The notes beneath the pieces were generated by a model. It did not search any database and was not told where the DNA came from. It saw nothing but the letters and a program-made list of their open reading frames with translations. A DNA stretch of 51,917 bases from IMG/VR virus record IMGVR_UViG_3300044950_000141, positions 65,670 to 117,586 of that record; one strand, written 5' to 3'. The DNA is from a virus. Shown piece after piece: positions 20,301-51,917 of the stretch; position 1 is the first letter of the stretch, and each line of letters begins with the position of its first letter. The position numbers and the translations under genes are program-made.

Positions 20301-23300
20301 GGTGGTTATTCTTTTATAGGTAGTGGTAATACAAATACAGCATCAGGAGATAAGTCGTTTATAGGTAATGGTCAATCTAATACTGCTTCAGGAGCTTGTT
20401 CAACTGTAGGAGGAGGTAGTAATAATTTAGCTTCAGGAATATTTTCAACTGTAGTAGGAGGTAGTAGTAACACTTCTAATAATACGAGAGCGTTTGTTGG
20501 AGGAGGTATTAGTAACACAGCATCAGCATACAATACAACAGTTGCAGGAGGATATGTTAACTCTGCCACTGTAGGTGGTGCAACAGTTGTGGGAGGTATA
20601 GGTAATACTGCATCAGGTGCTTGTAGCTTTGTAGGTGGAGGTTGTGCAAATTCAGCAACAAGCAATTTTACAACAGTAGGTGGTGGTGTTTGTAACACAG
20701 CAAGCAGTTATGCCAATACAATTGGTGGAGGATTTTATAATTATAGTGTTGGAAATTATAATACAATTTCAGCAGGTTATAAAAACTGTATTTTCTCAAC
20801 AGGCTCATTTATAGGTGGTGGTACTTGTAATTACATTTGTAATGGATTAGCTTTTTCTTGTACATCAAGTACTACAATTGCAGGTGGTGCAGGAAACAAT
20901 ACAAGTGGTGGTACATTTAATCCTACTAGTGGATATTTTAGTGTTGCTCCTACAGCTTTTTATGCAGCAGGACAATTTAGTTTTATAGGTGGAGGATTTC
21001 AGAATAGAGCAACAGGGACAAGTTCTGTTGTAGGAGGAGGTAAATCTAACACATCTTCAGGACTTTATTCAGTTGTTGGAGGAGGGTATCTGAACGTAGC
21101 AAATGGTGATACTTCTGCTGTATTAAGTGGACAACAAAATACATCATCATCTAATCAATCTGTAGTTGCAGGCGGTTATTTAAACACAGCTTCAGCATAT
21201 AGAGCAACTATTGCAGGTGGTCAGTCAAATACAGCATCAGGTAATTGTTCAACAGTTGGAGGAGGTCAAGCAAATCTTGCTTCAGTAGCTCATTCAACAG
21301 TGGCAGGAGGTATATCAAACATAGCTTCAGGGAACTGTTCATTTGTTGGTGGAGGATGTAGAAACTATTCAACAGGTGCTTGGTCTGCAATTGTAGGTGG
21401 CAGTGATAGCTGTGCCACAAGTACAAGAGCTTTTGTTGGTGGAGGTTATAATAATACTGCATCAAGCACATATTCAACAGTATCAGGTGGCTATGTAAAT
21501 GTAGCATCAGGTGGTCGTTCATTTGTAGGTGGAGGAACGAGTAACTTGGCATCAGGAGCAAATTCAACTGTGTCAGGTGGTATATCTAACACAGCTTCAG
21601 GTAACTGCTCTGTAGTTGCAGGGGGTAAAAATAATACAGCTTCTAATGCATATACATTTGTAGGTGGTGGTAATTTTACTATTGCTTGTGGAGTAAGTGC
21701 AACAGCAAGTGGCGGATATGCTTCACACGCTTATGGTAATTATTCAACAGTAGGTGGTGGATGTGGAAACAATGCTTTATCAGCTTGTTCAACTGTTGCA
21801 GGTGGTCGAGGTAATACAGCTAATTTTGCAGGTGCTGCAATAGTAGGAGGTCAATTAAATACAGCTTCTTATTATTTTTCTTTTGTAGGAGCAGGTAATT
21901 CTAATATAGCAAATAATTATGCAAGTGCTGTAGCAGGAGGTAGTAGTAATACAGCATCAGGTTATCGTTCATTTGTAGGGGCAGGTATAAGTAACACAGC
22001 TTCAGGTAATTGTTCTACAGTAGGTGGTGGTGAGAGTAATCAAGCATCAGGTGTATATTCAGCAACAGGGGGAGGAGTTCTTAATATTGCATCAGGAATT
22101 GATTCTGTGGTTGCAGGTGGGCGTTCAAATTCAGTATCAACACTTCGTTCTGCGGTAGGAGGAGGATTCCAAAACACAATTACCACAGGTGGCTATTCTA
22201 CTATTAGTGGCGGTTATGCTAATATTGCTTCAGGTGCAATATCATTTGTTGGTGGTGGATGTAGAAACTGTACAACATCAGCTTATTCTGTAGCTGTTGG
22301 AGGTAGAGCAAATACAGCAGCAGGAAGTGGTTATTCGTTTGTTGGTGGTGGTATAACAAATACAGCAAGTGGTTCATATTATTCTTTTGTGGGTGGTGGT
22401 TCTTCTAACACAGCTTCAGGAATAAGGTCAACTATTAGTGGTGGTGCAGGTAATACAGCATCAGGTGCAATATCATTTGTAGGAGGTGGTCAATCTAACG
22501 CAGCTTCAGGAGCTTGTTCTACTATTGGAGGAGGACAAGGTAATACAGCAACAGGTGCTAAATCATTTGTAGGAGGTGGATATAATAATACTGCTTCAAT
22601 TGCAAATGGAGTTGTAAGTGGTGGTTTAGGTAATACTGCATCAGGTTATTCAGGAACTGTAAGTGGTGGTTATCAAGGATTAAATAACCAAGCCTATGGA
22701 ACTTTAGGTGGTGGTACATTCAATAGTGTTTGCCATTCAGTTAGTGATATATGTGCATTAGGTGCAACAGTAGGTGGCGGTGTAGGTAGCAACTCTACAG
22801 GAGGAACATTTGTAAATGGATGGACAGTTAATCCAACAAGAGTAAACGCAGGTAGATATAGTACAGTAGCAGGTGGATTCCAAAATAAAGCAACAAGCAC
22901 AAGTGCTACAATTGGTGGTGGTTATCAAAACACTGCAAGTAATAGTTATTCTACTGCATCAGGTGGTTATAGAAATACAGCATCAGGAGTAGTATCAACA
23001 ATATCAGGTGGTTCAAATAATTTTGTATCATCAAATTATTCCACTGTAGGTGGAGGTACTTCTAACTGTATAACAGCAGGAAGAAACCACGTAATTGGCG
23101 GTGGTGAAACAAACACTATTAGTGCTAACTATTTTGGTACAGTTGGTGGTGGTGTATCTAATACAGCGTCAGGTTATAAATCTACAGTGGGAGGTGGCAG
23201 AACAAATGTTGCTTCAGCAGAATATTCAACAGCATCAGGAGGGCAAAGCAACACAGCTTCAGGGGTAGGTACATTTGTAGGGAGTGGATTAGGAAATACA

Positions 23301-25241
23301 GCAAATGGTACTCGTTCAGCTGTTGTAGGTGGTTCATCAAATGCAGCATCAGGTGTATGTAGCTTTGTAGGAAGTGGTCAAGGTAACAATTCATTAGCAA
23401 ATGCTTCGTTTATTGGTGGTGGTCAAGCTAATACTGCAAATGCAAACCAATCAACTGTAGTAGGAGGATATGGAAATACAGCTTCAGGTTATCGTTCATT
23501 TGTTGGTGGAGGTATATCAAATACATCTTCAGCATATAGAACAACAGTTTCAGGAGGTGATAGTAATGGTGCAACAGCAAACTATGCTACAGTAGGGGGT
23601 GGTATATCTAATACAGCTAGTTCTACTAATGCATTTGTAGGAGGTGGACAAGCAAACATATCTTCTAACGGAAGTACAACAGTTGCAGGTGGGACAAGTA
23701 ACACAGCTTCAGGATTAAGAGCTACAGTAGGAGGTGGCGATACTAATACAGCTTCAGGTGGACAATCAACAGTAAGTGGTGGTAACACTAACATAGCTTC
23801 AGGTGCTTGTTCATTTGTAGGTGGTGGAACAGGAAATAATGCAGTTAGTTTAGGTTCTTTTGTAGGCGGTGGAAGTATCAATACAGCTTGTGGTCCATAT
23901 AAAGCAGCAGTAGTGGGTGGAGGAAGTAACACTGCTTCAGGATATTATTCATTTATTGGAGCAGGATATGCAAACTGCATTTGCAACGTTTATTCAGGAA
24001 CAATATCAGGAGGTTATCAGAATACAATTTCAGCAGGTTGTCATGGATTTATTGGTGGTGGTAGACAAAACGTAGTTGCAGGTGTTCACGCAGGTGTAGT
24101 GTCAGGTATTTTAAACACAGCTTCAGGCAGTTGTTCATTTGTGGGTGGTGGTAGACTTCATACTGCTGCTGCGGGATTTTCAACTGTATCAGGAGGTTAT
24201 TGTCATACATCAAGTGGATATGGTTCAACAGTTGGTGGTGGCTATAGAAACACTGCAAACAATACCTATTCAACAGTAGCAGGGGGAAGCGGTCAATTAG
24301 CAACAGGAGCTAGATCTGTATTAGGAGGTGGAAGTGATAATATTGCTTCAGGAACTTATGCGTCAGTAATAGGAGGTATTTCAAATACAGCATCAGGACT
24401 TTGTTCAACCGTTGGGGGTGGTCAAGGTAATGTTGCATCAGGATGTTGGAACTTTGTAGGTGGTGGCCTTAGCAATACAGCAAGTGGTCTTTATTATGCA
24501 AGTGTAGTCGGTGGTGTTGGAAACATTGCTTGTTGTTCTTATTCAGCAATTGGTGGAGGATATTATAACTGTACAGGGTTTGTAGCTTCTGTAGGTGGAG
24601 GAGATGGTAACAAAGCTATGGGTAACTATTCAGCTATTGCTGGTGGATATTGTAACTGTGCTTCAGGCGCTTGTTCGTTCATTGGTGGTGGTGGTTCTTT
24701 TGGCGCAGGGGGTAATGTTGCATCAGGAGCTTGGTCAGCTATTTTAGGCGGTTTAAGTAATACAGCATCAGGTGCATTTTCAGGAGCATTTGGTTGTGGG
24801 TTAGCAGCTTCAGCAGCTTGTACATTCTATTCAAACAACTTCTGTGCAACTTCTTGTATAAATGCAGCAAGCAGGGGTACTTTTCTTGGAGCTGTTGACA
24901 ATGCTTTATTTAGTTTAAATAGTGGAGGTACATTGTACACAGTTGGATTTAGTCCAACAGCAAGTGCAAGTAGTACAAATACTTTTACATTAACAAATGG
25001 TACAACTACTTGGATTTACACTGGTAGTGGTGCGGCAACTTGGACACTTCCTAATCCTAGCGGTAATAACCAAATATATTGGATTAAAAACGCTGGCACT
25101 GGTGCAATAACTTTAAATGCTTTTAGTGGTACTAATATAATAAATAATAGTGCGACATCAGTAGGTAGTATTTCAATAGCGGTTGGTGCAACAGCAGTAA
25201 TCGCCCAAGACGGAAACGTAAAATCTTATCAATTACAATAA
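17346..25241 (+). CDS. Giant repeat-rich tail fibre / adhesin
   Basis: 2631 residues. Residues 1-328 form a non-repetitive N-terminal part, probably virion-attaching, containing TGGTSSDFVKGDGSLD-type blocks common in phage fibres. Residues about 329-582 and 665-898 are two stalks built almost only of Ser, Gly and Thr with some Ala, Asn and Asp (SGTSGSSG units). They are separated by an 83-residue beta-rich domain. Residues about 928-2485 are about a hundred degenerate copies (estimated from the period) of a 14-16 residue unit, VGGGxxNTASG, resembling the left-handed beta-roll heads of trimeric YadA-like adhesins. The C-terminus (2486-2631) is a separate beta-rich domain. No membrane anchor is present, which argues against a bacterial autotransporter. 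The Ser/Thr content makes it a plausible acceptor for the sugar transferases encoded nearby. Confidence 0.8.
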   Translation: MNISCTEEVCPIIMNAICVFYEGADLIYTGINTNDNLQTALEKIDAKFGDASIGYIFQNGVIQASPGDPVKLGGTLNQNTVILSSGYTFTITDSIESAALITTGGTSSDFVKGDGSLDSGPYQPAGNYISSLSGDGTATGPGASTLTLATVNTSPGTYGSSTLVPRVTVNGKGLVTNITPVTITVPSAILIFVGDVTGAGITGSPTTLTLQTVNPNVYSSNTFLKFGVNGKGLVTSAAPITALDITGVLGYTPVPTTRTLTINGLTQNLASNRTWSVGTVTSVGISMPSGFTVGPPVTSSGNINVTANGTIAQYIRGDGSIGSFTASTSGSSGTSGTDGSSGTSGSSGSSGSSATSGTSASSGTSGTNGTSGSSGTSGSSGTSATSGSSGTDGSSGSSGTSGSSGSSGTSASSGSSGSSGTSGSSGSSGSSASSGTSGSSGTDGSSGTDGSSGTSGSSGTTGTSGTSGSSGTSGSSGTSASSGSSGTDGSSGTSASSGTSGTSGSSGTSASSGSSGTTGTSGTDGSSGTSASSGSSGTSASSGTSASSGTSGTSGTNGTSGSSGTSATSGSSGTSASSGLSGDRYATTSTTTFTLGNAGTITVGTQLAYTVAQSIIVVYDALNFQECEVSSYNPATGSLSFLAPTRTVGGGTYSSWTVNLDGASGGDGSSGTSGSSGSSASSGTSGTSGTNGTSGSSATSGSSGTSASSGTSASSGTSGVNGTSGTDGSSGTSGSSGTSGTNGTSGTNGTSGSSGTSGSSGSSGTSASSGSSGTSASSGSSGSSGSSGTSGSSGTSGTNGTSASSGSSGSSGTSGSSGSSGTSASSGSSGSSGTTGTSGSSGSSGTSGSSGSSGSSGTSASSGSSGSTGTSGTSGSSGSSGTSGSSGSSGTAGSSGSSGVGAVIVLGAGTLSSVRCGASNSATGSYTGNLAGSGNTIGGSAYNTIIGGAINTASGAYYAHIGNGAKHTASANFSTVSNGYCNIASGGYSFIGSGNTNTASGDKSFIGNGQSNTASGACSTVGGGSNNLASGIFSTVVGGSSNTSNNTRAFVGGGISNTASAYNTTVAGGYVNSATVGGATVVGGIGNTASGACSFVGGGCANSATSNFTTVGGGVCNTASSYANTIGGGFYNYSVGNYNTISAGYKNCIFSTGSFIGGGTCNYICNGLAFSCTSSTTIAGGAGNNTSGGTFNPTSGYFSVAPTAFYAAGQFSFIGGGFQNRATGTSSVVGGGKSNTSSGLYSVVGGGYLNVANGDTSAVLSGQQNTSSSNQSVVAGGYLNTASAYRATIAGGQSNTASGNCSTVGGGQANLASVAHSTVAGGISNIASGNCSFVGGGCRNYSTGAWSAIVGGSDSCATSTRAFVGGGYNNTASSTYSTVSGGYVNVASGGRSFVGGGTSNLASGANSTVSGGISNTASGNCSVVAGGKNNTASNAYTFVGGGNFTIACGVSATASGGYASHAYGNYSTVGGGCGNNALSACSTVAGGRGNTANFAGAAIVGGQLNTASYYFSFVGAGNSNIANNYASAVAGGSSNTASGYRSFVGAGISNTASGNCSTVGGGESNQASGVYSATGGGVLNIASGIDSVVAGGRSNSVSTLRSAVGGGFQNTITTGGYSTISGGYANIASGAISFVGGGCRNCTTSAYSVAVGGRANTAAGSGYSFVGGGITNTASGSYYSFVGGGSSNTASGIRSTISGGAGNTASGAISFVGGGQSNAASGACSTIGGGQGNTATGAKSFVGGGYNNTASIANGVVSGGLGNTASGYSGTVSGGYQGLNNQAYGTLGGGTFNSVCHSVSDICALGATVGGGVGSNSTGGTFVNGWTVNPTRVNAGRYSTVAGGFQNKATSTSATIGGGYQNTASNSYSTASGGYRNTASGVVSTISGGSNNFVSSNYSTVGGGTSNCITAGRNHVIGGGETNTISANYFGTVGGGVSNTASGYKSTVGGGRTNVASAEYSTASGGQSNTASGVGTFVGSGLGNTANGTRSAVVGGSSNAASGVCSFVGSGQGNNSLANASFIGGGQANTANANQSTVVGGYGNTASGYRSFVGGGISNTSSAYRTTVSGGDSNGATANYATVGGGISNTASSTNAFVGGGQANISSNGSTTVAGGTSNTASGLRATVGGGDTNTASGGQSTVSGGNTNIASGACSFVGGGTGNNAVSLGSFVGGGSINTACGPYKAAVVGGGSNTASGYYSFIGAGYANCICNVYSGTISGGYQNTISAGCHGFIGGGRQNVVAGVHAGVVSGILNTASGSCSFVGGGRLHTAAAGFSTVSGGYCHTSSGYGSTVGGGYRNTANNTYSTVAGGSGQLATGARSVLGGGSDNIASGTYASVIGGISNTASGLCSTVGGGQGNVASGCWNFVGGGLSNTASGLYYASVVGGVGNIACCSYSAIGGGYYNCTGFVASVGGGDGNKAMGNYSAIAGGYCNCASGACSFIGGGGSFGAGGNVASGAWSAILGGLSNTASGAFSGAFGCGLAASAACTFYSNNFCATSCINAASRGTFLGAVDNALFSLNSGGTLYTVGFSPTASASSTNTFTLTNGTTTWIYTGSGAATWTLPNPSGNNQIYWIKNAGTGAITLNAFSGTNIINNSATSVGSISIAVGATAVIAQDGNVKSYQLQ
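18331..19092 (+). repeat. Ser/Gly/Thr stalk 1 coding repeat
   Basis: About 254 codons of near-uniform TCA/AGT/TCT-GGA/GGT-ACA/ACT units encoding SGTSGSSG-like sequence. Low complexity opens long false frames on both strands. It is part of the fibre gene. Confidence 0.85.
19342..20040 (+). repeat. Ser/Gly/Thr stalk 2 coding repeat
   Basis: A second, independent block of about 233 codons of the same SGTSGSSG type, separated from stalk 1 by a normal-complexity beta domain. The domain-flanked duplication suggests expansion by recombination between repeats. Confidence 0.85.
20128..24800 (+). repeat. NTASG / VGGG repeat array
   Basis: About 1557 codons of a degenerate unit of 42-48 bases (GGTGGAGG...AATACAGCATCAGG and variants) encoding VGGGxxNTASGxxST. 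A few longer inserts interrupt it, for example near 20800-20990 and 22690-22860. Units vary and there are no unique spacers, so this is protein repeat and not CRISPR. Confidence 0.85.
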
Positions 25242-28476: not shown

Positions 28477-28682
28477 TAGTAGAACGTAAAAGACACATAG
28501 CTAAGACAATCAGTTATAGATTGATAAGCACCCTTATAGGATTTGCTGCAATGCTTGTTGTTACAGGCTCTGTAAAAGCAGGAGCAGCGTTTGGTATAGC
28601 TGAATTACTTTGGAAACCAATACAATATTATTTCCATGAACGTATATGGTATAGATGGATTAAGTATGGACTAAAGCCTTAA
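28473..28682 (+). CDS. DUF2061 membrane protein
   Basis: 69 residues with the DUF2061 pattern: KTISYRLISTLIGFAAMLVVTGSVKAGAA then a C-terminal YYFHERIWYRW. Two membrane segments are likely (about residues 14-32 and 36-50). It overlaps the nucleotidyltransferase by ATGA. In bacteria, proteins of this family are, to my recollection, often encoded beside sulfate-activation genes, which supports reading this operon as a sulfur cassette; its molecular role is unknown. Its 3' end overlaps the convergent glycosyltransferase gene by 23 bases. Confidence 0.75.
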   Translation: MIVERKRHIAKTISYRLISTLIGFAAMLVVTGSVKAGAAFGIAELLWKPIQYYFHERIWYRWIKYGLKP

Positions 28683-29763
28683 CTGCCATAGCAACATCAT
28701 TAACAGAAATACTCTTATGACATTCAAACTGTCTAGGAGTATTTTCATTTTCAGGACACCAGTTCCAATCTCCTTTGTTAAACTTGAACATAGGATTATT
28801 CCAACATCCATTACACACTTCTTTATTAGTTATACGTGTACAATCTTCTTGAAACTCATGGTCTTCTGTAGTGAAGTTAGAGATCATTACAGTGTGCTTA
28901 CATATAGCCCAGTTCAACCAACTGATACCACTAGACAGTCCTATGAACAAATCTGCATGATGTAGATAGTTCATAACGTTCTGTAAACTAGTATCGTCTA
29001 GTTTCTCTGCACCATAGTCATCAGCTTCTTGAGACATCTCAAACACTCTGTATCCCCAGCTTTTTAGTTGCTGAATTAACTCTGGCCAGTAGTACCAATG
29101 TTTACACTGTGCTGTAGATTTTGTAGATATACATATGTATTCATTCACTACAGGTCTTTCTTCTAGTGTAAATGCTATTCTAGGATGTATCTCTTTAAAT
29201 GGTAGGGCTAATATGTTACTTGCTGATTGTTGTAATGGTATAGTGGCAGGATGTGTAGGTTCTTTTTCCTTATCCCAAAACCAACCTAGTTCAACCCTAG
29301 CTTTGATATTCTGTACTATTGTTCCTCTACCTGAAAACTCTAGTTCAGGATATGCACTCTCAAACAAGTCATTCTTGAATGTAGACACAATCACTTTACA
29401 TTTATAAACTTCCTGAAATTGTAAACAGTATGGTATCCAAGCTATGCTATCACCAAGACTCTTAGACTCAAATACAATAAACACCCTCTCACCTTTAAAC
29501 TCATCTAGTAAGTTCACTTGTTTAATTGTACGTCCTTCATACTTAATGAATATAGCTATATCAGATATATACTTTCTACTAAGTCTAGCCCACGCACCTG
29601 GCTTTAGTTTTGTTTCATAGATAGTTACATGTTGATCTGTAAGCATGCCTTCCACCTTACCCTTTCTATCTACAAACTGTATATCATATTCTCTGTTCTT
29701 ACCACCATCCTCTATTAGTTCAAAGAACAAACCATCAACATGGTTTAATTTATATGTTATCAT
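28660..29763 (-). CDS. TibC/BAHT-like O-heptosyltransferase family glycosyltransferase
   Basis: 367 residues. A central GT-B half contains SLGDSIAWIPYCLQF and ADLFIGLSSGISWLNWA. The C-terminus has four cysteines as C317-x2-C320-x15-C336-x11-C348 within EVCNGCWNN, GDWNWCP and RQFECHKSI, which I recognise as the metal-binding signature of bacterial autotransporter heptosyltransferases (TibC/Aah type, strand-loop-strand family). Those enzymes O-glycosylate Ser residues in beta-solenoid repeats of autotransporter adhesins using an ADP-heptose-type donor. This is the last gene of a five-gene - operon (14-base overlap upstream). Substrate here is unproven; the phage's own beta-repeat fibre is the obvious candidate. 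Confidence 0.7.
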   Translation of the reverse strand: MITYKLNHVDGLFFELIEDGGKNREYDIQFVDRKGKVEGMLTDQHVTIYETKLKPGAWARLSRKYISDIAIFIKYEGRTIKQVNLLDEFKGERVFIVFESKSLGDSIAWIPYCLQFQEVYKCKVIVSTFKNDLFESAYPELEFSGRGTIVQNIKARVELGWFWDKEKEPTHPATIPLQQSASNILALPFKEIHPRIAFTLEERPVVNEYICISTKSTAQCKHWYYWPELIQQLKSWGYRVFEMSQEADDYGAEKLDDTSLQNVMNYLHHADLFIGLSSGISWLNWAICKHTVMISNFTTEDHEFQEDCTRITNKEVCNGCWNNPMFKFNKGDWNWCPENENTPRQFECHKSISVNDVAMAVKALVHT

Positions 29764-30763
29764 ATGCGTTTATATATAATTGTTTTGTCTTTTCTGATGT
29801 ATATCCTTCATTGATCTTCAACACATTTTCATAGTATTTATGTAATGTCTTAGCTACATTGTCCCAGCTATAACTATTACGTACAGTTAGCATCTCTTGT
29901 CTTCTATGTTCATATGTCTTAATTGTCTCTGTAATGCCATGCATTACACTCTCTGTGCTAATGTTTGGTAACACCCACATACCAGGGAAGTGTTTAGATC
30001 CTCTATAAGTTCCTACAATAGGAATACATACACTAGCTGCTTCACATAATGTTAGATTGGGATGTCCTGCTTCTAGCATAGATGGATGTAAGAAGATGCT
30101 ATGATCCTGATACAGTTCTTTCATTTCTTCATCTGTAGGATTTGTTAACTTTAAAGTTAACTTTTTATAATTCAATAACTCTATATGGATATCAAAGAAC
30201 TTCTGATTGTCAGTATGTCCAGCAATAGTGATAGGTAGATCTAATTCTCTAGCTGCTTCTATACCATATCTAAATCCTTTTCTATCAAACCCTGAGTCAC
30301 CTGCTAATCCATTGTTAGCTATCATCAATAGTTTATGTGGACCCATTCTATAGTCTGGTGTAAAGAATTCTGTGTTAGCCCCATGTCTTAGATAGAACAA
30401 CTTATCAGTCTCACTGAAGTAGTCTATTAGATACTCAGCATGTGTAAAAGATATAATGCTATTCTTCATAGCCTCTAGATTTTGCTTATACACCCAGCTA
30501 TCTTTACCATACCATTCTGTATGATGATCATGTAGAGAGTATACATAAGGTATACCTTTGTCTCTACAATACAAAGCCTGGTTAGCTAGATGTGTATGTA
30601 CAATTGTATCTGGCCATTTCTCTAGCTCATTCATATATTTGATGTCTACAACATCTCCTAGCTTTTCAAGGGATTGTTTATATTCCCATGTAAGTCTTTC
30701 TACAGCTCCCCATCCATTTGGTGGTATAGTTATAAGCCCTGTAGCTACGTGTACTATTCTCAT
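29750..30763 (-). CDS. GT4-family glycosyltransferase
   Basis: 337 residues of GT-B fold. N-terminal MRIVHVATGLITIPPNGWGAVERLTWEY is the acceptor-side start of GT4 enzymes. The C-terminal half has LFYLRHGANTEFF, GDSGFDRKGFRYGIEAA and HPSMLEAGHPNLTLCEA, which corresponds to the EX7E donor-binding region (LEAG...LCEA). A retaining sugar transferase using a nucleotide-sugar donor in the cytoplasm is expected. Start and stop overlap the neighbours (4 and 14 bases), so it is translationally coupled in the glycosylation operon. Confidence 0.75.
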   Translation of the reverse strand: MRIVHVATGLITIPPNGWGAVERLTWEYKQSLEKLGDVVDIKYMNELEKWPDTIVHTHLANQALYCRDKGIPYVYSLHDHHTEWYGKDSWVYKQNLEAMKNSIISFTHAEYLIDYFSETDKLFYLRHGANTEFFTPDYRMGPHKLLMIANNGLAGDSGFDRKGFRYGIEAARELDLPITIAGHTDNQKFFDIHIELLNYKKLTLKLTNPTDEEMKELYQDHSIFLHPSMLEAGHPNLTLCEAASVCIPIVGTYRGSKHFPGMWVLPNISTESVMHGITETIKTYEHRRQEMLTVRNSYSWDNVAKTLHKYYENVLKINEGYTSEKTKQLYINAYDNI

Positions 30764-33414
30764 TTTCTAAATGTTTTTTGCATGTTGTCTATTAAGGAAA
30801 ATCCATCTGCTTGTGTGGTAAGTCTCTTCTTCACAATACCCATTCTATCTCCTGCAAAGATATTATTAAAATACATATCAGCAGCATCCCACTTGTGCAT
30901 TCTTAAAGTTTCTTTTAACCATGGAGCTACATGTGCAGGGAACATGATACATTGTAAACCTATAATATGATTTGTAACATACATGTCATTGTTCACTTCT
31001 TTGACAACAGGACTTTGTGGCCAGCCATATTCTAATGTATCTTTATCTCCAAAGGACATGTATTCTATTCCATTCTCTATAAGCTTAGTTGCACACTCTT
31101 CTACAGTCTTAATGAACTCTTCAATAGGTGCCTCAATGATACAATCACCTTCACACACTATCAAGTAGTCACAGTTATTGAATTCACTCAAGATAGCATT
31201 CTTGAATGCTTCATAGCATCCATAATGTGCTGGGGTAAGTGCAGTGCCATGTTGTTGAACTTGTTGTTCATTGAAGAGTTCCATTGAAACACAACTGGGT
31301 CTGAGACAGTTATATGATGGTGGTAATGATTTATAGGGCTCGTTAATGTGTAACTTATATTCCCATCCATGGTTGATAACTTCAATAAGGGAGTCTCTGC
31401 TAGCTTTTTCTCTTTCATCATTTAATGTGGTTTGTATGTGAACTAATTTAATCTTTGGTCTATCTTTCTTCTTCCATTCAAATTTACCAGTTTTCTGATA
31501 TTTATGAATAGTATCTGCATTCATTTCAAACTTTTCTTTCTTATATATTCTATCTCCATCATAACATGACATTTCTATTACATTATTTCCTGTGTATTCA
31601 AACTCATGTTTAAATTCTCTTGTTGTAGAAATATCTATCTTCATCATATATTCTCCAATCTTAACCCAAAATATTCTATCATCTACATTATATGTAAAGA
31701 AATAGAACATATACCAATCAGGCTTTCCAGTAACAGGAAGTATAGAATAATACTCGCTATTAGATGCAACACCTAATCCACTGTGTATCAACAATGTTTG
31801 ATCAGCATTAGTAACTAATTGTATATCATTTGGATTGAAACTAAATACCACCTTAGCTAAATAGTCTTCTAGATAGTTCTCACACTTTCTTCTCTTACAT
31901 ACAGCATCCCATTCATCAGGTGTACGTACATCATCAAATTCTTTTACAAAGAAGTCTACATCAAACATCATTCCATTGGTTTGAATTCCTTTTCCTTGAG
32001 ATGTATTAACTATACCTAAATAAGCTTTCTTGTCTGTATTAAAGGATTCATTAATAACACCTAAGTCTTTCTCATTTACAACTACATCATATGTGTTATA
32101 GAATGCACGTTTGTATCCTAGATCTTGAGCAGCTTTGAATCCATTATATAAGTTAGTAAGTACAGTGAGAGACTGATTACTATATTTCAATCCATTGATA
32201 TTCACCTCAGCATAATAGTCATCTGTATGTCTATAGAATCTGCTGTAATAAGAATGATGTGTTAATGGATTATGTGCATCGTACACATAGTGATCCACCA
32301 TACGTTGTATCTCCTCGTCCACAGGATAGTGACTGATTAACATGATGTTTCTACCTAAGGCTTTCATAGAGTTGATAGTATCCTTAGTTAATTGTGCACG
32401 AGATTTTAAATTAGGATAGGTGCCTATGATGATAAGTTCTTCATCTTTCTTATCAAGGTTTAATTTTTTGATGATATTAGTAGCATCACTACCAATATCT
32501 CCAGTTAAATAAACCATATTCTCTGCATCATTATACTTGTTACAATATACATCTAGGTTGTACATTACTTTGATCAAGTCATCATATTCCATAGCTTCTT
32601 TAATAGCAATAGGATTTAACTCCTTGTTACCTCTGTCTCCTTTAGATGGGAAGAAGAATACATCAGAAGCTTCTAAGAACATGTCTACATCATCTCGCTC
32701 ACCCCACACAACACAGTTGTCTGGTTTGTTAGCCATCAAGGGCTTCCAATATGATTCAAAGTTACCAGCTTGGTTACCTAGGAAATGAAACTTAACCTTG
32801 TAGTTCTTAAGTCTTTCTGCTAGTTGGAATGCATAAGCTTGATTCTTTCTAGGTGTAAACAACCCTACAGTTACAAAGTGTTTATAGTCATGCTCTAATC
32901 CTAACTTTTCTCTTATAGCATACTGGTTTCTTTCTTTCTTGTTTACAGGATACTCAATCACTTCTGTAGGTACATTTAATGTAATGTATTGAAATGAATT
33001 ATATGAGCTAACAAATATAAACTTGTCAGGCAAATAGTATTTGTTTTTAGGATTGAATGAACTATCATGTGTAGTTTCTACAATCTTCCATGGCTTCTCT
33101 GCATCGTATAGATAGTCAGCACATTCTTCATTCATAAACATCTCTGGAAACTCTTCCATAGAGATTACATCTGGTTTGAACTCTTGCAGAACTTGCAACA
33201 GTTCATCATATTTATTCTCTCCTAGTGAATGGAAGTTCTGATCTCCCACTAGTTTAATTATTCTATTTCTTTGCACAACAAACTGCCATGCTAGGAATGC
33301 ATACTCTACCACCTTGATATCAAAGTCATTCTGTAGTAGTTCTACTTTGTTTACTGTTACCTGGGGTGCTCCTCCTGTTGATAGATGAGGAGTGATGATT
33401 AATAGTTTCTTCAT
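30760..33414 (-). CDS. Three-module glycosyltransferase
   Basis: 884 residues with three apparent parts. Residues about 1-290 look like a GT4-type GT-B domain: MKKLLIITPHLSTGGAPQVTV, later TVGLFTPRKNQAYAFQLAERL and FFFPSKGDRGNKELNPIAIKEA. Residues about 310-600 begin IIIGTYPNLKSRAQLTKDT and contain YNTYDVVVNEKD, suggesting a GT-A-like domain. Residues about 650-884 contain CDYLIVCEGDCIIEAPIEEF and a GT25-like ending (NHIIGLQCIMFPAHVAPWL). It could add several sugars in sequence. Domain borders are estimated by eye. It overlaps both operon neighbours by 4 bases. Confidence 0.65.
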   Translation of the reverse strand: MKKLLIITPHLSTGGAPQVTVNKVELLQNDFDIKVVEYAFLAWQFVVQRNRIIKLVGDQNFHSLGENKYDELLQVLQEFKPDVISMEEFPEMFMNEECADYLYDAEKPWKIVETTHDSSFNPKNKYYLPDKFIFVSSYNSFQYITLNVPTEVIEYPVNKKERNQYAIREKLGLEHDYKHFVTVGLFTPRKNQAYAFQLAERLKNYKVKFHFLGNQAGNFESYWKPLMANKPDNCVVWGERDDVDMFLEASDVFFFPSKGDRGNKELNPIAIKEAMEYDDLIKVMYNLDVYCNKYNDAENMVYLTGDIGSDATNIIKKLNLDKKDEELIIIGTYPNLKSRAQLTKDTINSMKALGRNIMLISHYPVDEEIQRMVDHYVYDAHNPLTHHSYYSRFYRHTDDYYAEVNINGLKYSNQSLTVLTNLYNGFKAAQDLGYKRAFYNTYDVVVNEKDLGVINESFNTDKKAYLGIVNTSQGKGIQTNGMMFDVDFFVKEFDDVRTPDEWDAVCKRRKCENYLEDYLAKVVFSFNPNDIQLVTNADQTLLIHSGLGVASNSEYYSILPVTGKPDWYMFYFFTYNVDDRIFWVKIGEYMMKIDISTTREFKHEFEYTGNNVIEMSCYDGDRIYKKEKFEMNADTIHKYQKTGKFEWKKKDRPKIKLVHIQTTLNDEREKASRDSLIEVINHGWEYKLHINEPYKSLPPSYNCLRPSCVSMELFNEQQVQQHGTALTPAHYGCYEAFKNAILSEFNNCDYLIVCEGDCIIEAPIEEFIKTVEECATKLIENGIEYMSFGDKDTLEYGWPQSPVVKEVNNDMYVTNHIIGLQCIMFPAHVAPWLKETLRMHKWDAADMYFNNIFAGDRMGIVKKRLTTQADGFSLIDNMQKTFRK

Positions 33415-34340
33415 ATGTTATTGTTAATTGCGTGAATCACCTGCTCTACAGATGGATGACACTCATAAGCTTCTTTCTTCTCTAAGCATCCAATCAGTGG
33501 CTGTACAGAGTCTATTGTAGGCCAATACTCAAGAGCATATTTCATATTGGATGAACAGTGTAATCCACATGCTCCTCTTACGTATATATGTTTGCTAGTC
33601 TTTCTACGTGGTCTACGAAACTCTGGGTTGATAGGAGATCCTAATTCAATTATAGGTGTTTCTGTTGTACCTGCTAAATGTAGGATACCTGAGTCCATTG
33701 TAATTACAACTGCAGCATCGTTAATCAGATGCCAGCTCTCAGAGATAGATGTTTGATTCATTAGATTGATAACATTTTGATTATCAATATCATGTACAGG
33801 TTTGTTTACATTAAAGAATCCTGTCTCAGAACTATCCTTACCTATAGCCACCACTTTGTATCCCCACTTCACTAACTCTTCAGATAGCTTTAGCCAGTTC
33901 TCTTGTGACCATGTTCTATTAGGCCAGCTGTTAACAGGATGTATTACAGCATACTTCTCATGTACAAAGTTCTTCTTAGGTTCTGTAGGTTTGTAATAAC
34001 ATTCTAGTTCATCTTCTCCAAGCATAAAGCCTAGGTGTATGGCATGAAACTGTCTGATGTCCATCATGTTATGCTTCATCTCCACACCACGCTCGTCCTT
34101 CTTACCTACTAGATAGAATGAATTATGTACAATGTAATTACTTTGTATGTACGTCATGTCTATAGAACTAGCTTTATAGCTCTTCTCTACATAGGGATTC
34201 GTTTTAAATAGCTCAGGCATCTGAGAGATGACAGTAATCTTTCTTTGATATGCATCATGTAGTTTCTTAATGGTGGGGGTGGCACATATCAGGTCTCCCA
34301 AACCATTACATTCTTCTAAGTTTAAGCAAACTGGTTTCAT
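33411..34340 (-). CDS. GT9-family (heptosyltransferase-like) glycosyltransferase
   Basis: 309 residues. N-terminal ECNGLGDLICATPTIKKLHDAY has the GxGD loop of GT9 enzymes. The C-terminal half has YAVIHPVNSWPNRTWSQENW, AIGKDSSE and VVITMDSGILHLAGTTETPIIELG, a textbook GT9 donor-binding region (D-S-G-x-x-H-L-A). Such enzymes transfer heptose or related sugars. A cysteine cluster near the C-terminus (ACGLHCSS) is also seen. Second gene of the - glycosylation operon, with 4-base overlaps on both sides. Confidence 0.75.
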   Translation of the reverse strand: MKPVCLNLEECNGLGDLICATPTIKKLHDAYQRKITVISQMPELFKTNPYVEKSYKASSIDMTYIQSNYIVHNSFYLVGKKDERGVEMKHNMMDIRQFHAIHLGFMLGEDELECYYKPTEPKKNFVHEKYAVIHPVNSWPNRTWSQENWLKLSEELVKWGYKVVAIGKDSSETGFFNVNKPVHDIDNQNVINLMNQTSISESWHLINDAAVVITMDSGILHLAGTTETPIIELGSPINPEFRRPRRKTSKHIYVRGACGLHCSSNMKYALEYWPTIDSVQPLIGCLEKKEAYECHPSVEQVIHAINNNI

Positions 34341-34981
34341 TGTATTGACATTAAAAAATCAGGAGTTGTATAGTCTCTTTTAACTGTTGTATATCCTAGT
34401 CTAGCTAAGAAATTTACAGCTGTACTTGTATTGTCCTCTAACCATATTAGAGGCTTATCTCTTTGTATTAATTTTATCATTCCTTCAAAAGCAGACATCT
34501 CATGACCCTCAATATCTATCTTGATAAACTTAACAGGCTCATCAAACCATACATCATCTAGAGCTAAGACAATGTTCTTATGTGCTCCATTAGGTACAAT
34601 CTTTACCACACCACTGTTGGAACCATGTCCATCATCAAATGAAACAATAGATGTTCTACTACCCACTCCTACATTTATTGCAGATACATCCTTGTATCTT
34701 TTTGTGTTTTGCTTTAGAACAGAATAGTTATCTGGATGTGGTTCAAATGCTATAATCTTTAAGTTAGGGAAGTGGTGTTTAAATTGTACACAATGTCCTC
34801 CTATATTAGCCCCAATATCTAACATTAGTCCTGTAGAAGGGAAATGTTCTTTCCAATCATTAAATAACTGAAATTCCCAGAAATCATTGTATTTAACTAT
34901 GTCATCTGAGATACATTCAGGACTCTCAAATATAACCATAGGTGTATTGTGAATACTTACTATCCTAGTTTCTCGTTTCAT
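34337..34981 (-). CDS. FkbM-family SAM-dependent methyltransferase
   Basis: 214 residues with GLMLDIGANIGGHCVQF (SAM-binding motif I), IIAFEPHPDNYSVL (motif II) and VKFIKIDIEGHEMSAFEGM, together diagnostic of the FkbM family, which O-methylates sugars or polyketides. It is the first gene of the leftward glycosylation operon, with its promoter immediately upstream in the divergent region. It probably caps or decorates sugars added by the four downstream transferases. Confidence 0.8.
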   Translation of the reverse strand: MKRETRIVSIHNTPMVIFESPECISDDIVKYNDFWEFQLFNDWKEHFPSTGLMLDIGANIGGHCVQFKHHFPNLKIIAFEPHPDNYSVLKQNTKRYKDVSAINVGVGSRTSIVSFDDGHGSNSGVVKIVPNGAHKNIVLALDDVWFDEPVKFIKIDIEGHEMSAFEGMIKLIQRDKPLIWLEDNTSTAVNFLARLGYTTVKRDYTTPDFLMSIQ

Positions 34982-38424: not shown

Positions 38425-38595
38425 ATGGCAATACCATCAAGACAGATAGGTTGGAGTACAACAGATAACTTGCTTTGGCAGATATCTAAGCAATTAGAAT
38501 ATTTGACACAAGTAACAGCTAATTGTTGTCCTACAACAACTACCACAACTACAGTAGCACCAACAACTACTACTACGACTACACCTGCTCCTTAA
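38425..38595 (+). CDS. Small protein with Thr-rich tail
   Basis: 56 residues. N-terminal IGWSTTDNLLWQISKQLEYL is helical and resembles short phage proteins containing a QIGWSxxxNLLWxISKQL motif. After NCCP the protein becomes two Thr runs split by VAP and ends in PAP. The CC-x-PTTTTT junction is the same as in the two stalk proteins downstream. It directly follows a good promoter. I infer a small virion-surface or tail-tip protein with a glycosylatable tail. Confidence 0.65.
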   Translation: MAIPSRQIGWSTTDNLLWQISKQLEYLTQVTANCCPTTTTTTTVAPTTTTTTTPAP

Positions 38596-39640: not shown

Positions 39641-39928
39641 ATGGCCCAGAATACTAATCGCCCTCTCAAAGCTTATGTACGCTTTGATGGTACTGGAAGA
39701 ATCGTTCCAAGCAGCCTAATCTTAAGAAGAAAGAAACCCAAGGTTGGTAAGTGGGTAGAGATCCCAGCTTATGAATGTTGCAATTACGTTCCTACAACAA
39801 CTACTACAACCAGTAGTACAAGCACTAGCACAACTACTAGTACATCTACTAGCACAAGTACAAGTACAACAACAACTACTACGACTGCTACTCCAACAAC
39901 AACAACAACAACAACTCCTGCACCTTAA
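39641..39928 (+). CDS. Thr/Ser-rich stalk protein without display domain
   Basis: 95 residues, 2 bases after the glycosyltransferase. Residues 1-50 form a small domain (LKAYVRFDGTGR, SLIL, KVGKWVEI, ECCNYVP); residues 51-95 are almost only Thr and Ser with a final PAP. The N-terminal domain is clearly paralogous to that of the next gene, which continues into a lectin-like domain. This copy may be a decoy, a tail-surface decoration or a form that lost its tip. Confidence 0.65.
   Translation: MAQNTNRPLKAYVRFDGTGRIVPSSLILRRKKPKVGKWVEIPAYECCNYVPTTTTTTSSTSTSTTTSTSTSTSTSTTTTTTTATPTTTTTTTPAP
39791..39925 (+). repeat. Thr/Ser codon repeat (stalk)
   Basis: About 45 codons of ACA/ACT/AGT/TCT repeats encoding the mucin-like tail of the 95-residue protein. 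Low-complexity coding repeat. Confidence 0.8.
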
Positions 39929-39940
39929 AATTAAATAAAC

Positions 39941-40747
39941 ATGGCAAATAGCAACAATAGATTAAAAGCATATGTACGTTACGATGGTACAGGACGTGTC
40001 ATAGCAGGTAGCTTGATCTTACAAAGATTCAAACCACAAGTGGGTAATTGGGTGGAGATAGATGCAAATGAGTGTTGTAATTATGTTCCAACAACCACTA
40101 CAACTACGTCTTCTACTAGTACTAGTACAAGCACTTCTACAAGCACTTCTACAAGTACTACAACAAGTACATCTACTTCTACAAGTACAAGCACTTCTAC
40201 AAGTACAACAACAACAACAACAACAGCTGCACCAGCAGAATGTCCTGAAGATTATACAATTGGTCAAGCTGCATTAGGTGGTAAAATTGCATACATCCTA
40301 CAATCAGGTGACCCAGGATATGATTCAAATTTACAACAAGGATTAGTAGCTACAATAGCAGATATTTCAACAGGTGCACAGTGGGGATGTTTTGGAACAG
40401 CAATTGCAGGAGCAGATGGTACAGCTATTGGTACTGGTAATCAAAATACTATAGATATTATGGCTGGTTGTGCTACAGCAGGTATTGCAGCTAGACTTTG
40501 TGGTGATTTAGTTCAGGGAGGATATTCTGATTGGTATTTACCTAGTCAAGATGAATTAAATAAATTATACCTAAATAGAGTAGCTATTGGTGGTTTTACG
40601 AATAACGGCTATTGGAGTTCTACGGAGTACGCCACCATCTTCGCGTGGGACCAGAATTTCCTCACTGGCAGTCAGGACGGCAGCGATAAGACCTTCCCAA
40701 ACTATGTTCGCGCCATTAGGGCTTTTGCATGTACAATTCCTAGATAA
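39941..40747 (+). CDS. Stalk-mounted lectin-fold receptor-binding protein (candidate DGR target)
   Basis: 268 residues. Residues 1-50 match the paralogous anchor domain of the preceding gene (LKAYVRYDGTGR...ECCNYVP). Residues 51 to about 97 are a Thr/Ser stalk. Residues about 98-268 form a DUF1566/Lcl-type C-type-lectin-like domain: SDWYLPSQDELNKLY, NNGYWSSTEY, a variable AW..NF..G..DG..K segment, and NYVRAIRAF. The final stretch has strongly C-ending codons unlike its surroundings, as in variable regions of diversity-generating retroelements. It probably forms a phage tip that binds host receptors and can be diversified. Confidence 0.75.
   Translation: MANSNNRLKAYVRYDGTGRVIAGSLILQRFKPQVGNWVEIDANECCNYVPTTTTTTSSTSTSTSTSTSTSTSTTTSTSTSTSTSTSTSTTTTTTTAAPAECPEDYTIGQAALGGKIAYILQSGDPGYDSNLQQGLVATIADISTGAQWGCFGTAIAGADGTAIGTGNQNTIDIMAGCATAGIAARLCGDLVQGGYSDWYLPSQDELNKLYLNRVAIGGFTNNGYWSSTEYATIFAWDQNFLTGSQDGSDKTFPNYVRAIRAFACTIPR
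40091..40230 (+). repeat. Thr/Ser codon repeat (stalk)
   Basis: About 46 codons of alternating Thr and Ser (STSTSTST and TTTT runs) joining the anchor domain to the lectin-like domain. Confidence 0.8.
40604..40723 (+). other. Candidate DGR variable region (VR)
   Basis: Within codons 222-253, 16 of 32 codons end in C (including TAC GCC ACC ATC TTC in a row, GAC, CTC, GGC, AGC, ACC TTC), against 1 of 34 codons ending in C in the stretch just before. C-ending codons with free first and second positions are what adenine-directed mutagenesis of AAC template codons produces. The region ends in a conserved YVRAIRA, where a homing signal would sit. No template repeat or reverse transcriptase was seen in this window. 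Confidence 0.6.
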
Positions 40748-40762
40748 TAAAACTAAAACAGC

Positions 40763-41167
40763 ATGGCAAAATCATTATTCCCTGATGAGATGATGAAATC
40801 AGGAGAATTAAACTTGGAAACAATAGCTGGGAAGCTTACATATTTCCATGAGCAACTACATCTATTGCATTGGCAGACAACTAGTTATGCACAGCACAAG
40901 GCTCTTGGAAAGTTATATGAATATGTACAAGATTTTAAAGATGGTGTTGTTGAGAAGCTTATGGGTTATACAGGTAAACGTCCTGGTGCAATTAAACTAG
41001 AACAATTAACAGCTACAGATCCTAATGCAGTTGTCACAGCACTAATGGACTTCTCTAGTAACTTAAAAGCATATGGTGAGACTAATAAATTTCATGATAT
41101 AGCTAATTTAGCTGATGCCTTAAGTGGTGAAGCTGCAAAAACTAAATACTTATTAACCTTGTCTTAA
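40763..41167 (+). CDS. Ferritin/Dps-like DUF5856 family protein
   Basis: 134 residues, all helical. The pattern FHEQLHLLHWQTTSYAQHKAL...YEYVQDFKDGVVEKLMG has the His/Asp/Glu spacing of Dps-like ferritin helices (HxxxHW, HxxL, DxxxE), and I recall it as the phage family DUF5856. It may bind metal or protect packaged DNA, but the family is functionally undescribed. Its stop overlaps the next start (TAATG), so the two are coupled. Confidence 0.65.
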   Translation: MAKSLFPDEMMKSGELNLETIAGKLTYFHEQLHLLHWQTTSYAQHKALGKLYEYVQDFKDGVVEKLMGYTGKRPGAIKLEQLTATDPNAVVTALMDFSSNLKAYGETNKFHDIANLADALSGEAAKTKYLLTLS

Positions 41168-43787: not shown

Positions 43788-43821
43788 AAAAAAGCCTCCC
43801 TTAAAAAAGGAGGCTTTTTTT
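43788..43821 (+). terminator. Bidirectional intrinsic terminator between convergent operons
   Basis: AAAAAAGCCTCC (43788-43799) pairs perfectly with GGAGGCTTTTTT (43809-43820), with a T-run on the + strand and, by symmetry, on the - strand. It overlaps the stop codon of the leftward gene by two bases. Confidence 0.9.
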
Positions 43822-44356
43822 ATGATACTAATGAATTGTATACAGATAGTATCTTGTTTATGTAATGTTTATTCTTTGCTTTTTTATAACAGTTCTCAGC
43901 AAATACACCATCAGCATCTCTCCTTGATAGAACAAATCTTTCTTGATTCACTATAGATGTATGTACAATGAAGTTATGGCTATCTACATAGCTTAACTTA
44001 ATTATGTTTCCATACAATCTATGTACACCACTGTTCCACAGTTGATCAAATGATATAAAATCATTGTTTAAGTCTTTGATATTGTCCCACAACTCTGGAT
44101 GCATAGTTGTATCATCATCGTTGAAATATATCCAACCCTCTGTTACTAGATTAATTGCTAGGTTTCTTTGTGCATTTCCACATACGCTTTTTACATCCTT
44201 TATACAATAAGCTTCACATTCAGGAATATCAGTTGGAATAGTCTCTGAATCAAACACAACAATCCATCTGTAATTTTCTTTAGGTATGTTAATGCTTTCT
44301 GCAATTCTATGTAAAAAATGAGGTCTACTACAAGGAGTGATAATATTTAAGAACAT
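43820..44356 (-). CDS. GT2/GT-A-like glycosyltransferase
   Basis: 178 residues. NIITPCSRPHFLHRIAESI is a GT-A start and WIYFNDDDTTMHPELW holds the DxD donor/metal site. It is short for a GT2 enzyme (usually 230 or more residues) and may lack the C-terminal acceptor part. Last gene of the leftward operon, overlapping the methyltransferase by 10 bases. Confidence 0.7.
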   Translation of the reverse strand: MFLNIITPCSRPHFLHRIAESINIPKENYRWIVVFDSETIPTDIPECEAYCIKDVKSVCGNAQRNLAINLVTEGWIYFNDDDTTMHPELWDNIKDLNNDFISFDQLWNSGVHRLYGNIIKLSYVDSHNFIVHTSIVNQERFVLSRRDADGVFAENCYKKAKNKHYINKILSVYNSLVS

Positions 44357-45000
44357 GGTTTGTCATTTCTATGTAAAACTAAAAGCTTATCATTGTCCCA
44401 ACCTGGAGAAAACTTTAACTCATGATTAGCCATAATAAATGTAGCAGATGAGAAGTATTCTTTAATGTGATCCATGGCTTCCATGTATCTGTTTTCATCT
44501 TCTCTAAGGAAGATATCTTCGATGATGATTATACCTCCTGGCTTAACACATTTGTATGCTATGTTTAAAAATCTAATCTGATCTTCAAACACGTGTGTAG
44601 AATCTTCTATGATTATGTCAAAGAAGTTATTTTTGTTGAACACATTGTTAAGAGACTGTTCACTGGTAACATCTACATGAGTGTATGTAGCATTGTTAAG
44701 ATTATCACGTATTCCTTTTTGCAACTTATCATCATGATATTCATAACCAAACAATGTTGCATTAGGGAAGTACTCTCTCCAACATAACATAGAATGATTA
44801 TCTAATATACCCACTTCACCTATTGTAATCTCTTTGTAACGAAGATTTGAAAACAATAAGTTATATATGGAAGTGTAAGCATGTCTATGTAAATGAGGAT
44901 GGTTATGATAAGGACACTTGTCTGTAGGATACTTAACAGCAAGTTTACACAAGTCTGTATTAGAATGTGTAGAGTCAATACTTAGTCTATTTATTTGCAT
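44347..45000 (-). CDS. Class I SAM-dependent methyltransferase
   Basis: 217 residues. TIGEVGILDNHSMLCWREYFP stands in place of motif I, ATLFGYEYHD of motif II, and FFDIIIEDSTHVFEDQIRFL with CVKPGGIIIIEDIF is the C-terminal part seen in sugar and macrolide methyltransferases (TylF/macrocin type). It overlaps both glycosyltransferase neighbours (10 and 14 bases), so it probably methylates a sugar they add. Confidence 0.7.
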   Translation of the reverse strand: MQINRLSIDSTHSNTDLCKLAVKYPTDKCPYHNHPHLHRHAYTSIYNLLFSNLRYKEITIGEVGILDNHSMLCWREYFPNATLFGYEYHDDKLQKGIRDNLNNATYTHVDVTSEQSLNNVFNKNNFFDIIIEDSTHVFEDQIRFLNIAYKCVKPGGIIIIEDIFLREDENRYMEAMDHIKEYFSSATFIMANHELKFSPGWDNDKLLVLHRNDKPCS

Positions 45001-45742
45001 TGATAAAATCTTTTAACAATTCTGAATAATCTTTATCCCAATGAGGATTTAGTTTAACTTCTCCTGTAGGAATCTTTCCTAAACGTCTTTCAGATTCAAT
45101 GTGAGCACTGTGTCTTTGTATAGCATTGAGTTTTTTAGGATGGTCTGTACCTTCTCCACTCATGTGGTATCCTCTTCCTCCCCACATGTAAAACCAGCTA
45201 GCTTCTTCTTTAGGTGGAGTAGCAAATAGTCTACCTCCATGTTTATGTAGTCTTTCAATGAAAGTCATATCATATCCAGCATTTTCAAGAGGATGTCCCC
45301 CTATTGCTTTCCAAGCTGCTTTTCTAAACACAAGACCAGAATTACCTATCCAACCAACTTGCTCAATACCTGTAATGTGACACAACACACCTATTTGCCA
45401 ATGAAGTATGTTAACTTCTTCTGTCATGTATTTAGCTACATTCTTTAAATGGTGTGGTAGAGCTACGTCATCATCGTCCCATTGACATATAATATCTCCT
45501 TGACACAGTTCTGTAGCAAAGTTTTCTTTCTCTCCTATGGTCTCAAAGGTCTTAACTAGGTTAACTATCTTAACTTGAGGATGCTCAAATATAAGAGTTT
45601 GTAAGGCATAGTCATTTACTATGATAAGTTCGCACTTATCTGCAGGGTAGTCCTGCTTGAGGAAAGACTCAATGCTCTCCTCAAGCGTACTAACCCTTCC
45701 ATAAGTTATACACTTACATGATATAAATGGATGTGAGTTCAT
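44987..45742 (-). CDS. GT2 glycosyltransferase
   Basis: 251 residues. ISCKCITYGRVSTLEESIESFLKQDYP is the GT2 N-terminal signature, ICQWDDDDVALPHHL the DxD site, and WIGNSGLVFRKAAWKAIGG, then GYDMTFIERLHKHGG, the acceptor half with an ExD-like region. An inverting transferase using a nucleotide sugar is expected. Overlaps the methyltransferase by 14 bases. Confidence 0.8.
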   Translation of the reverse strand: MNSHPFISCKCITYGRVSTLEESIESFLKQDYPADKCELIIVNDYALQTLIFEHPQVKIVNLVKTFETIGEKENFATELCQGDIICQWDDDDVALPHHLKNVAKYMTEEVNILHWQIGVLCHITGIEQVGWIGNSGLVFRKAAWKAIGGHPLENAGYDMTFIERLHKHGGRLFATPPKEEASWFYMWGGRGYHMSGEGTDHPKKLNAIQRHSAHIESERRLGKIPTGEVKLNPHWDKDYSELLKDFINANK

Positions 45743-51718: not shown

Positions 51719-51917
51719 CTAACTAACTAAATTTCTTATTTTCATTCCTAATTCTGCATTGTTTGGATGGTCTCTAACTAATTTAGTTAGTTCCTTGTCT
51801 AAGCTCATTAATTTCTGTAAATAGAGCGTAGCATCCATCAATTCTTCCTGTAGATGCTTAAGATAATTATCCTTATTGTTAGTCTCTAGAGTGGTGCCAT
51901 ACTTGGTAATCCCTATT
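51719..51917 (-). CDS. Partial gene, phage conserved helical protein (3' part)
   Basis: About 65 codons open to the right edge and ending in TAG. ITKYGTTLETNN then HLQEELMDATLYLQKLM matches small phage proteins with a KYG-x-L...EE-x-MDAxxYL pattern, somewhat like MazG/dUTPase-type helical pyrophosphohydrolases, but the visible piece is too short to call. The start lies outside the window. Confidence 0.6.
   Translation of the reverse strand, partial: IGITKYGTTLETNNKDNYLKHLQEELMDATLYLQKLMSLDKELTKLVRDHPNNAELGMKIRNLVS

Follow-up and report, generated by a model that had tools for sequence, protein, structure and literature searches.

In the Bordetella phage BPP-1, the variable region (VR) of the target protein Mtd lies beside the template repeat (TR), Avd and reverse transcriptase (RT) of its diversity-generating retroelement (DGR). 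Complete DGRs are also reported for crAss-like phages (PMC7290462), and Lcl_C (DUF1566) has been called the most common DGR target domain (PMC6642488). VRs served in trans have been described inside one bacterial genome (PMC10907252), second, distal VRs are known inside a prophage (PMC12629997), and a replicating phage was retargeted in the laboratory by a donor plasmid (PMC3240598). A phage VR served by the DGR of its host is a case for which we found no description in the open-access literature. DGR surveys look for the RT first and then seek the VR beside it, and the largest of them states that remote targets go undetected (PMC8144416); a VR-only habit among phages, if true, would be missed by such cassette-centred surveys.

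We analysed a window of 51,917 nucleotides, i.e. positions 65670-117586 of a 117,586-bp IMG/VR record (IMGVR_UViG_3300044950_000141, hereafter G000). Positions 40604-40720 of this window are a DGR variable region (Table 1). It belongs to a lectin protein that sits on a stalk and is encoded by a crAss-like phage, and our results suggest that the phage leaves the diversification of this receptor protein to its bacterial host.

Table 1. Features of the target locus (positions in the window)
Feature	Position	Strand	Description or basis
Target gene, 268 aa, open frame	39941..40747	+	Probable anchor module, Thr/Ser stalk and C-terminal Lcl_C lectin-like domain
N-terminal module, ~50 aa	39941..40090	+	Common to neighbour gene 39641-39928
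Thr/Ser-rich stalk	40091..40237	+	Translation
Lcl_C domain, C-type-lectin-like fold	40238..40744	+	Structure model and Pfam
Stalk-only paralogue	39641..39928	+	Same N-terminal module and Thr/Ser stalk, without lectin tip
Variable region (VR)	40604..40720	+	Codon-usage switch; TR match at 41/43 non-A positions over 40607-40681
5' constant block TATTGGAGTTCTACGGAG	40610..40627	+	Identical in 39 IMG/VR stretches
Diversified codons	40628..40699	+	Opposite AAC/GAT/AAT/AAA/ACA template codons
3' constant block TATGTTCGCGCCATTAGG	40703..40720	+	First 17 bases in five IMG/VR stretches, four phage lineages
Stretch alignable with bacterial TR	40589..40720	+	One-codon indel at 40682-40684

The target gene and its neighbour (39641-39928) share the same translated start, LKAYVR-DGTGR...LIL-R--P-VG-WVEI---ECCNYVP, and this N-terminal module is probably a virion or assembly anchor. 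The target protein matches phrog_4245 (E 8.5e-26), a family annotated as of unknown function, and its residues 138-260 match Pfam Lcl_C (PF07603, DUF1566) above the cut-off (E 4e-11). An AlphaFold model of the domain (pLDDT 94.2, pTM 0.91) has as its best PDB match 8q4e, the C-terminal domain of Legionella Lcl (E 9.5e-9), and C-type lectins are among its weaker structural matches. By both PF07603 and the comparison of the model with 8q4e, the variable domain is C-terminal and of C-type-lectin fold, as in DGR targets. No PHROG match was obtained for the stalk-only paralogue. A further short Thr-rich gene ends upstream (38500-38595), so that at least three stalk-like genes are clustered there; the gene directly 3' of the VR gene (40763-41167) matches a Dps-like starvation-inducible protein (phrog_858, E 5e-16).

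Codon usage switches abruptly in the last segment of the lectin domain. C-ending codons account for 16 of the 32 codons in 40604-40699, against 4/122 in the preceding part of the same domain (40238-40603) and 1/36 directly upstream of the VR (p = 6.9e-6), and 40604-40723 has the highest GC content among all 120-bp segments of the record (54 % vs 34-35 %). The original prediction of a DGR variable region had pointed to this switch, to a lectin-like domain with the motifs YWSSTEY (from 40610) and YVRAIRAF (from 40703), and to the codon run TAC GCC ACC ATC TTC (40628-40642); all were confirmed, the domain being Lcl_C (PF07603). The use of C-ending codons as a mark of recent import into an AT-rich phage, and so of rewriting, was dropped since bacterial genes switch likewise. 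The IMG/VR stretches that contain TATTGGAGTTCTACGGAG are mostly Lcl_C-type VRs in different, unrelated phages, and the same block is identical in bacterial VRs and in one bacterial TR; TATGTTCGCGCCATTAGG is found with one mismatch in two Chitinophagaceae genomes.

The ends of the record carry a 179-bp direct terminal repeat (178/179 identical; L002 1-179 and window 51739-51917) that lies inside one gene, and an ORF truncated on the left resumes at the right end. Because of this repeat and of an ORF continuous over the junction, the record closes as a circle and is probably complete, a terminal repeat being no proof by itself. Portal, TerL and major head proteins of crAss type were all identified (phrog_6547, phrog_6681 and phrog_11589), and the portal matches mostly those of crAss-like, Bacteroides, Flavobacterium and Cellulophaga phages, with 24-29 % identity among the matches listed. 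Judged from these protein sequences, the phage would stand near the crAss-like phages. Three giant ORFs, of 4129 aa (from upstream of the window to 12215), 1653 aa (12219-17180) and 2631 aa (17346-25241), are of a size that we regard as usual for crAss-like genes coding for virion RNA polymerase or structural proteins. Two minus-strand clusters (28660-34981 and 43820-45742) hold what look like genes for glycosyltransferases, methyltransferases and sugar-related functions, more than a phage usually carries.

No RT was detected in the whole record by Pfam (RVT_1), by tblastn or by a profile built from 14 RTs, several of them from DGRs, which gave E 1e-46 to 1e-147 for its positive controls. A two-sequence Avd profile gave no match in the record, and an adenine-tolerant ungapped scan for a TR reached a best non-self score of 12.5, vs 10-13 in shuffled sequence. 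The phage VR is an orphan: neither a template nor an RT nor an Avd is encoded in the record. What had been said of the window, namely that it holds no TR or RT, is therefore true of all 117,586 bp. The accompanying proposal, that another part of the phage genome would provide the element, was not borne out: the search of the closed record for a near-copy of the VR and an RT gave nothing above noise for the former and none of the latter, and the matching TR is bacterial.

This TR was found in genome G518 with a constant-base pattern applied to 395 genomes of its class (Bacteroidia, as deduced from named relatives). Its contig C275 carries a VR, a bAvd gene adjoining the TR (PF22296, E 1e-17), the TR itself and then an RT fragment, truncated where the contig stops, that shares 63 % identity with a full DGR RT over 139 aa. 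Over 75 nt (40607-40681), the phage VR and the G518 TR agree at 41 of 43 non-A positions; recoding of the same peptide with phage codon usage gave a mean of 26 and a maximum of 35 matches, and 41 was reached in 0/100,000 trials. Differences between VR and TR lie mainly at TR adenines, as in a DGR pair, both over 81 nt (40601-40681; 17/36 A vs 2/45 non-A sites, p = 7.5e-6) and over the whole VR (22/49 A vs 9/71 non-A sites, p = 1e-4). The AAC-rich template first deduced from the phage codons is borne out almost codon by codon: TAC GCC ACC ATC TTC stands opposite AAC GAT AAC AAC AAT, and the codons GCG TGG, CAG AAT TTC and CAG are the same in both sequences. The G518 TR lacks one codon relative to the phage VR; because of this indel and of the 9/71 non-A mismatches, G518 is regarded as a member of the donor family, not as the exact donor.

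Another cassette of this type, with all its parts (VR-bAvd-AAC-rich TR-RT), is present in the Chitinophagaceae MAG L074, whose TR was the best non-self hit of the adenine-tolerant scan over related Lcl_C gene loci and the RT loci of those genomes. The donor search covered 396 Chitinophagaceae genomes (two patterns), the 395 genomes of the class, 28 selected genomes, the G331 genus with its 10 genomes (searched for an RT) and the family and order of G518 with their 2 genomes; in these bacterial genomes, the search turned up no TRs but the related ones of L074 and G518, and the exact donor TR was not among them. At the level of sequence comparison, the phage VR bears an adenine-specific imprint of the kind of TR that adjoins the bAvd and RT genes of Bacteroidota. 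An ACCGC-GAA-GCGGT hairpin follows several bacterial VRs of this DGR family and is absent after the phage VRs; no GC-rich hairpin lies within 100 nt downstream of the present one. In the form ACCGC-G(A/T)A-GCGGT, the hairpin is near-identical in different genomes, ~35-45 nt after the VR (L074 558-618; L175 and L177 1606-1666; L178), and represents a candidate target-recognition element of the bacterial family.

Other phages carry VRs of the same type. When 16 clear phage VRs from several unrelated phages, which have their constant bases in common, were compared with the L074 TR, entropy was 1.48 bits at template adenines vs 0.40 elsewhere (p = 4e-10). This A-site-specific variation, together with the 41/43 agreement given above, upholds the predicted identity of the region as a DGR variable region. 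Between the window and phage L007, 41/66 changes in the flanks fall at third codon positions and 25/30 changes in the VR at first or second positions (p = 5e-5). Two T4-like phage contigs (L093 and L094) contain tandem VR copies whose flanks are at most ~15 % different, and these copies (the three of L094 and the L093 pair with alignable flanks) differ at 18-26/38 template-A vs 2-7/71 other sites. In L093 (record G459, ~69805-71300), five tandem VR-like matches lie ~344 bp apart, the first directly after a short lipoprotein-like ORF; no RT was found in this 88-kb contig. Phage L009 was discarded as proof of recent VR replacement: its upstream near-identity came only from drawn tree lengths, and its DNA is 82 % identical.

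RVT_1 was found in 0/70 related viral records. A terminal repeat is absent from the checked records apart from G000 and G019, and the VR-bearing records of the same sequence type other than G000 are fragments. As the records checked mostly lack a terminal repeat, RT absence in single related records is weak evidence; the closed G000 and the absence of a TR of this type from 2.9 million IMG/VR contigs (exact G518-TR pattern and a looser pattern) weigh more. A different TR pattern readily finds phage DGR cassettes with their own RT in IMG/VR.

The reading that we place just on the probable side is that the orphan VR depends, in trans, on a DGR of the Bacteroidota host, the phage record being without machinery. 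During infection, the host DGR ribonucleoprotein would replace VR sequence of the phage with a copy of its own cDNA, mutated at A, and the phage would acquire diversified receptor-binding tips without carrying the machinery. We infer such rewriting from the non-adenine positions, where the VR is still nearly identical to the host template; it is further favoured by the tandem copies, with their similar flanks and different A sites, and by the constant bases common to several phage lineages. The related phages L108 and L113 have the same 5' VR sequence, and their differences lie in the last three mutable codons, the pattern to be expected if retrohoming started at the 3' end and was partial. 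The failure to find the exact donor TR in the genomes searched counts against rewriting in trans, and the missing 3' hairpin and the identical VR of L006, the sole near-identical phage genome (two genomes compared), count against it or are neutral. The tip may act as the host-range engine of the original prediction, yet no change of the VR was seen between these two genomes. The Lcl_C segment may instead have been captured, already diversified, by recombination from a bacterial DGR target gene, its VR now being a fossil that is no longer rewritten. This is possible, if rather doubtful, and accounts for much of the same evidence because phages and bacteria often exchange domains: phage and bacterial Lcl_C genes interleave in the tree, at least four label changes being forced by supported branches, and with the same codon switch in bacterial genes a joint transfer of domain and VR would give the same picture. 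The lack of a hairpin and the VR shared with L006 fit capture, as do the AT-rich VRs without C-ending signature of many related phages, which are expected of frozen regions. It is at odds with the tandem copies, with the several unrelated phages that have the same constant bases and different A sites, and with the 3' differences between L108 and L113. The wider proposition, that unrelated Bacteroidota phages (crAss-like and T4-like) keep VR-only receptor genes tuned to host DGR templates for diversification in trans, is tentative and falls somewhat short of probable.

The machinery could also come from another mobile element in the same cell, i.e. a co-infecting phage, prophage or plasmid and not the host chromosome. 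Phage-borne Lcl_C DGRs do exist (L130-L132), but their TRs differ in the 5' half and no TR of the present type was found on plasmids, in GenBank phages or in IMG/VR, which makes this source improbable; L127-L132, considered as donors, are genuine phage DGRs with other TRs and were rejected. That the phage formerly carried a DGR, of which RT and TR were recently lost, is a shade less probable still: complete DGRs are reported for other crAss-like phages (PMC7290462), but the record retains no remnant of TR, Avd or RT, no relative with the same VR type has an RT, and the matching TR lies in bacteria. Least credible of all is that the pattern arose without a DGR, from codon bias or from the usual conservation of the Lcl_C motif in protein sequence; YWSSTE...YVRA(I/V)R is indeed conserved at protein level in the family, but the DNA-level match to the TR goes far beyond same-peptide recoding and the variation is specific to A sites.

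A VR sequence is common here to phages without a detectable element and to bacteria with one. Should these VRs be the work of the hosts, a diversification system of bacteria would be an engine of phage evolution too, and the constant bases of a phage VR, being those of the host TR, would aid in assigning hosts to uncultivated phages. The weaker reading, i.e. repeated capture of host-diversified lectin tips, would still offer a route to varied phage binding domains.

As in BPP-1, the VR forms the C-terminal, C-type-lectin-fold part of a phage protein likely to bind a receptor, and its variation is directed to adenines; unlike BPP-1, this phage has neither TR, Avd nor RT, and the GC-rich 3' hairpin needed there for efficient homing is missing. 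The present phage resembles crAssphage LMMB (PMC7290462) and the epsilon and zeta crAss-like phages as a Crassvirales-type phage with a DGR-diversified surface protein, whereas in the published cases the RT is self-encoded. The bacterial Lcl_C DGRs of L074 and G518 have the same domain, near-identical constant bases and an AAC-rich template, but their targets are secreted surface proteins, their TR, Avd and RT are in cis, and the hairpin follows several of their VRs. The IMG/VR cassettes L130-L132, with Lcl_C-like targets, show a similar 3' template design but an adjacent RT and Avd and a different TR. In Thiohalocapsa PB-PSB1 (PMC10907252) and in the second VRs of gut prophages (PMC12629997), the VR also lies apart from TR and RT; there it shares a genome with the machinery, whereas here VR and machinery apparently reside in different genomes.
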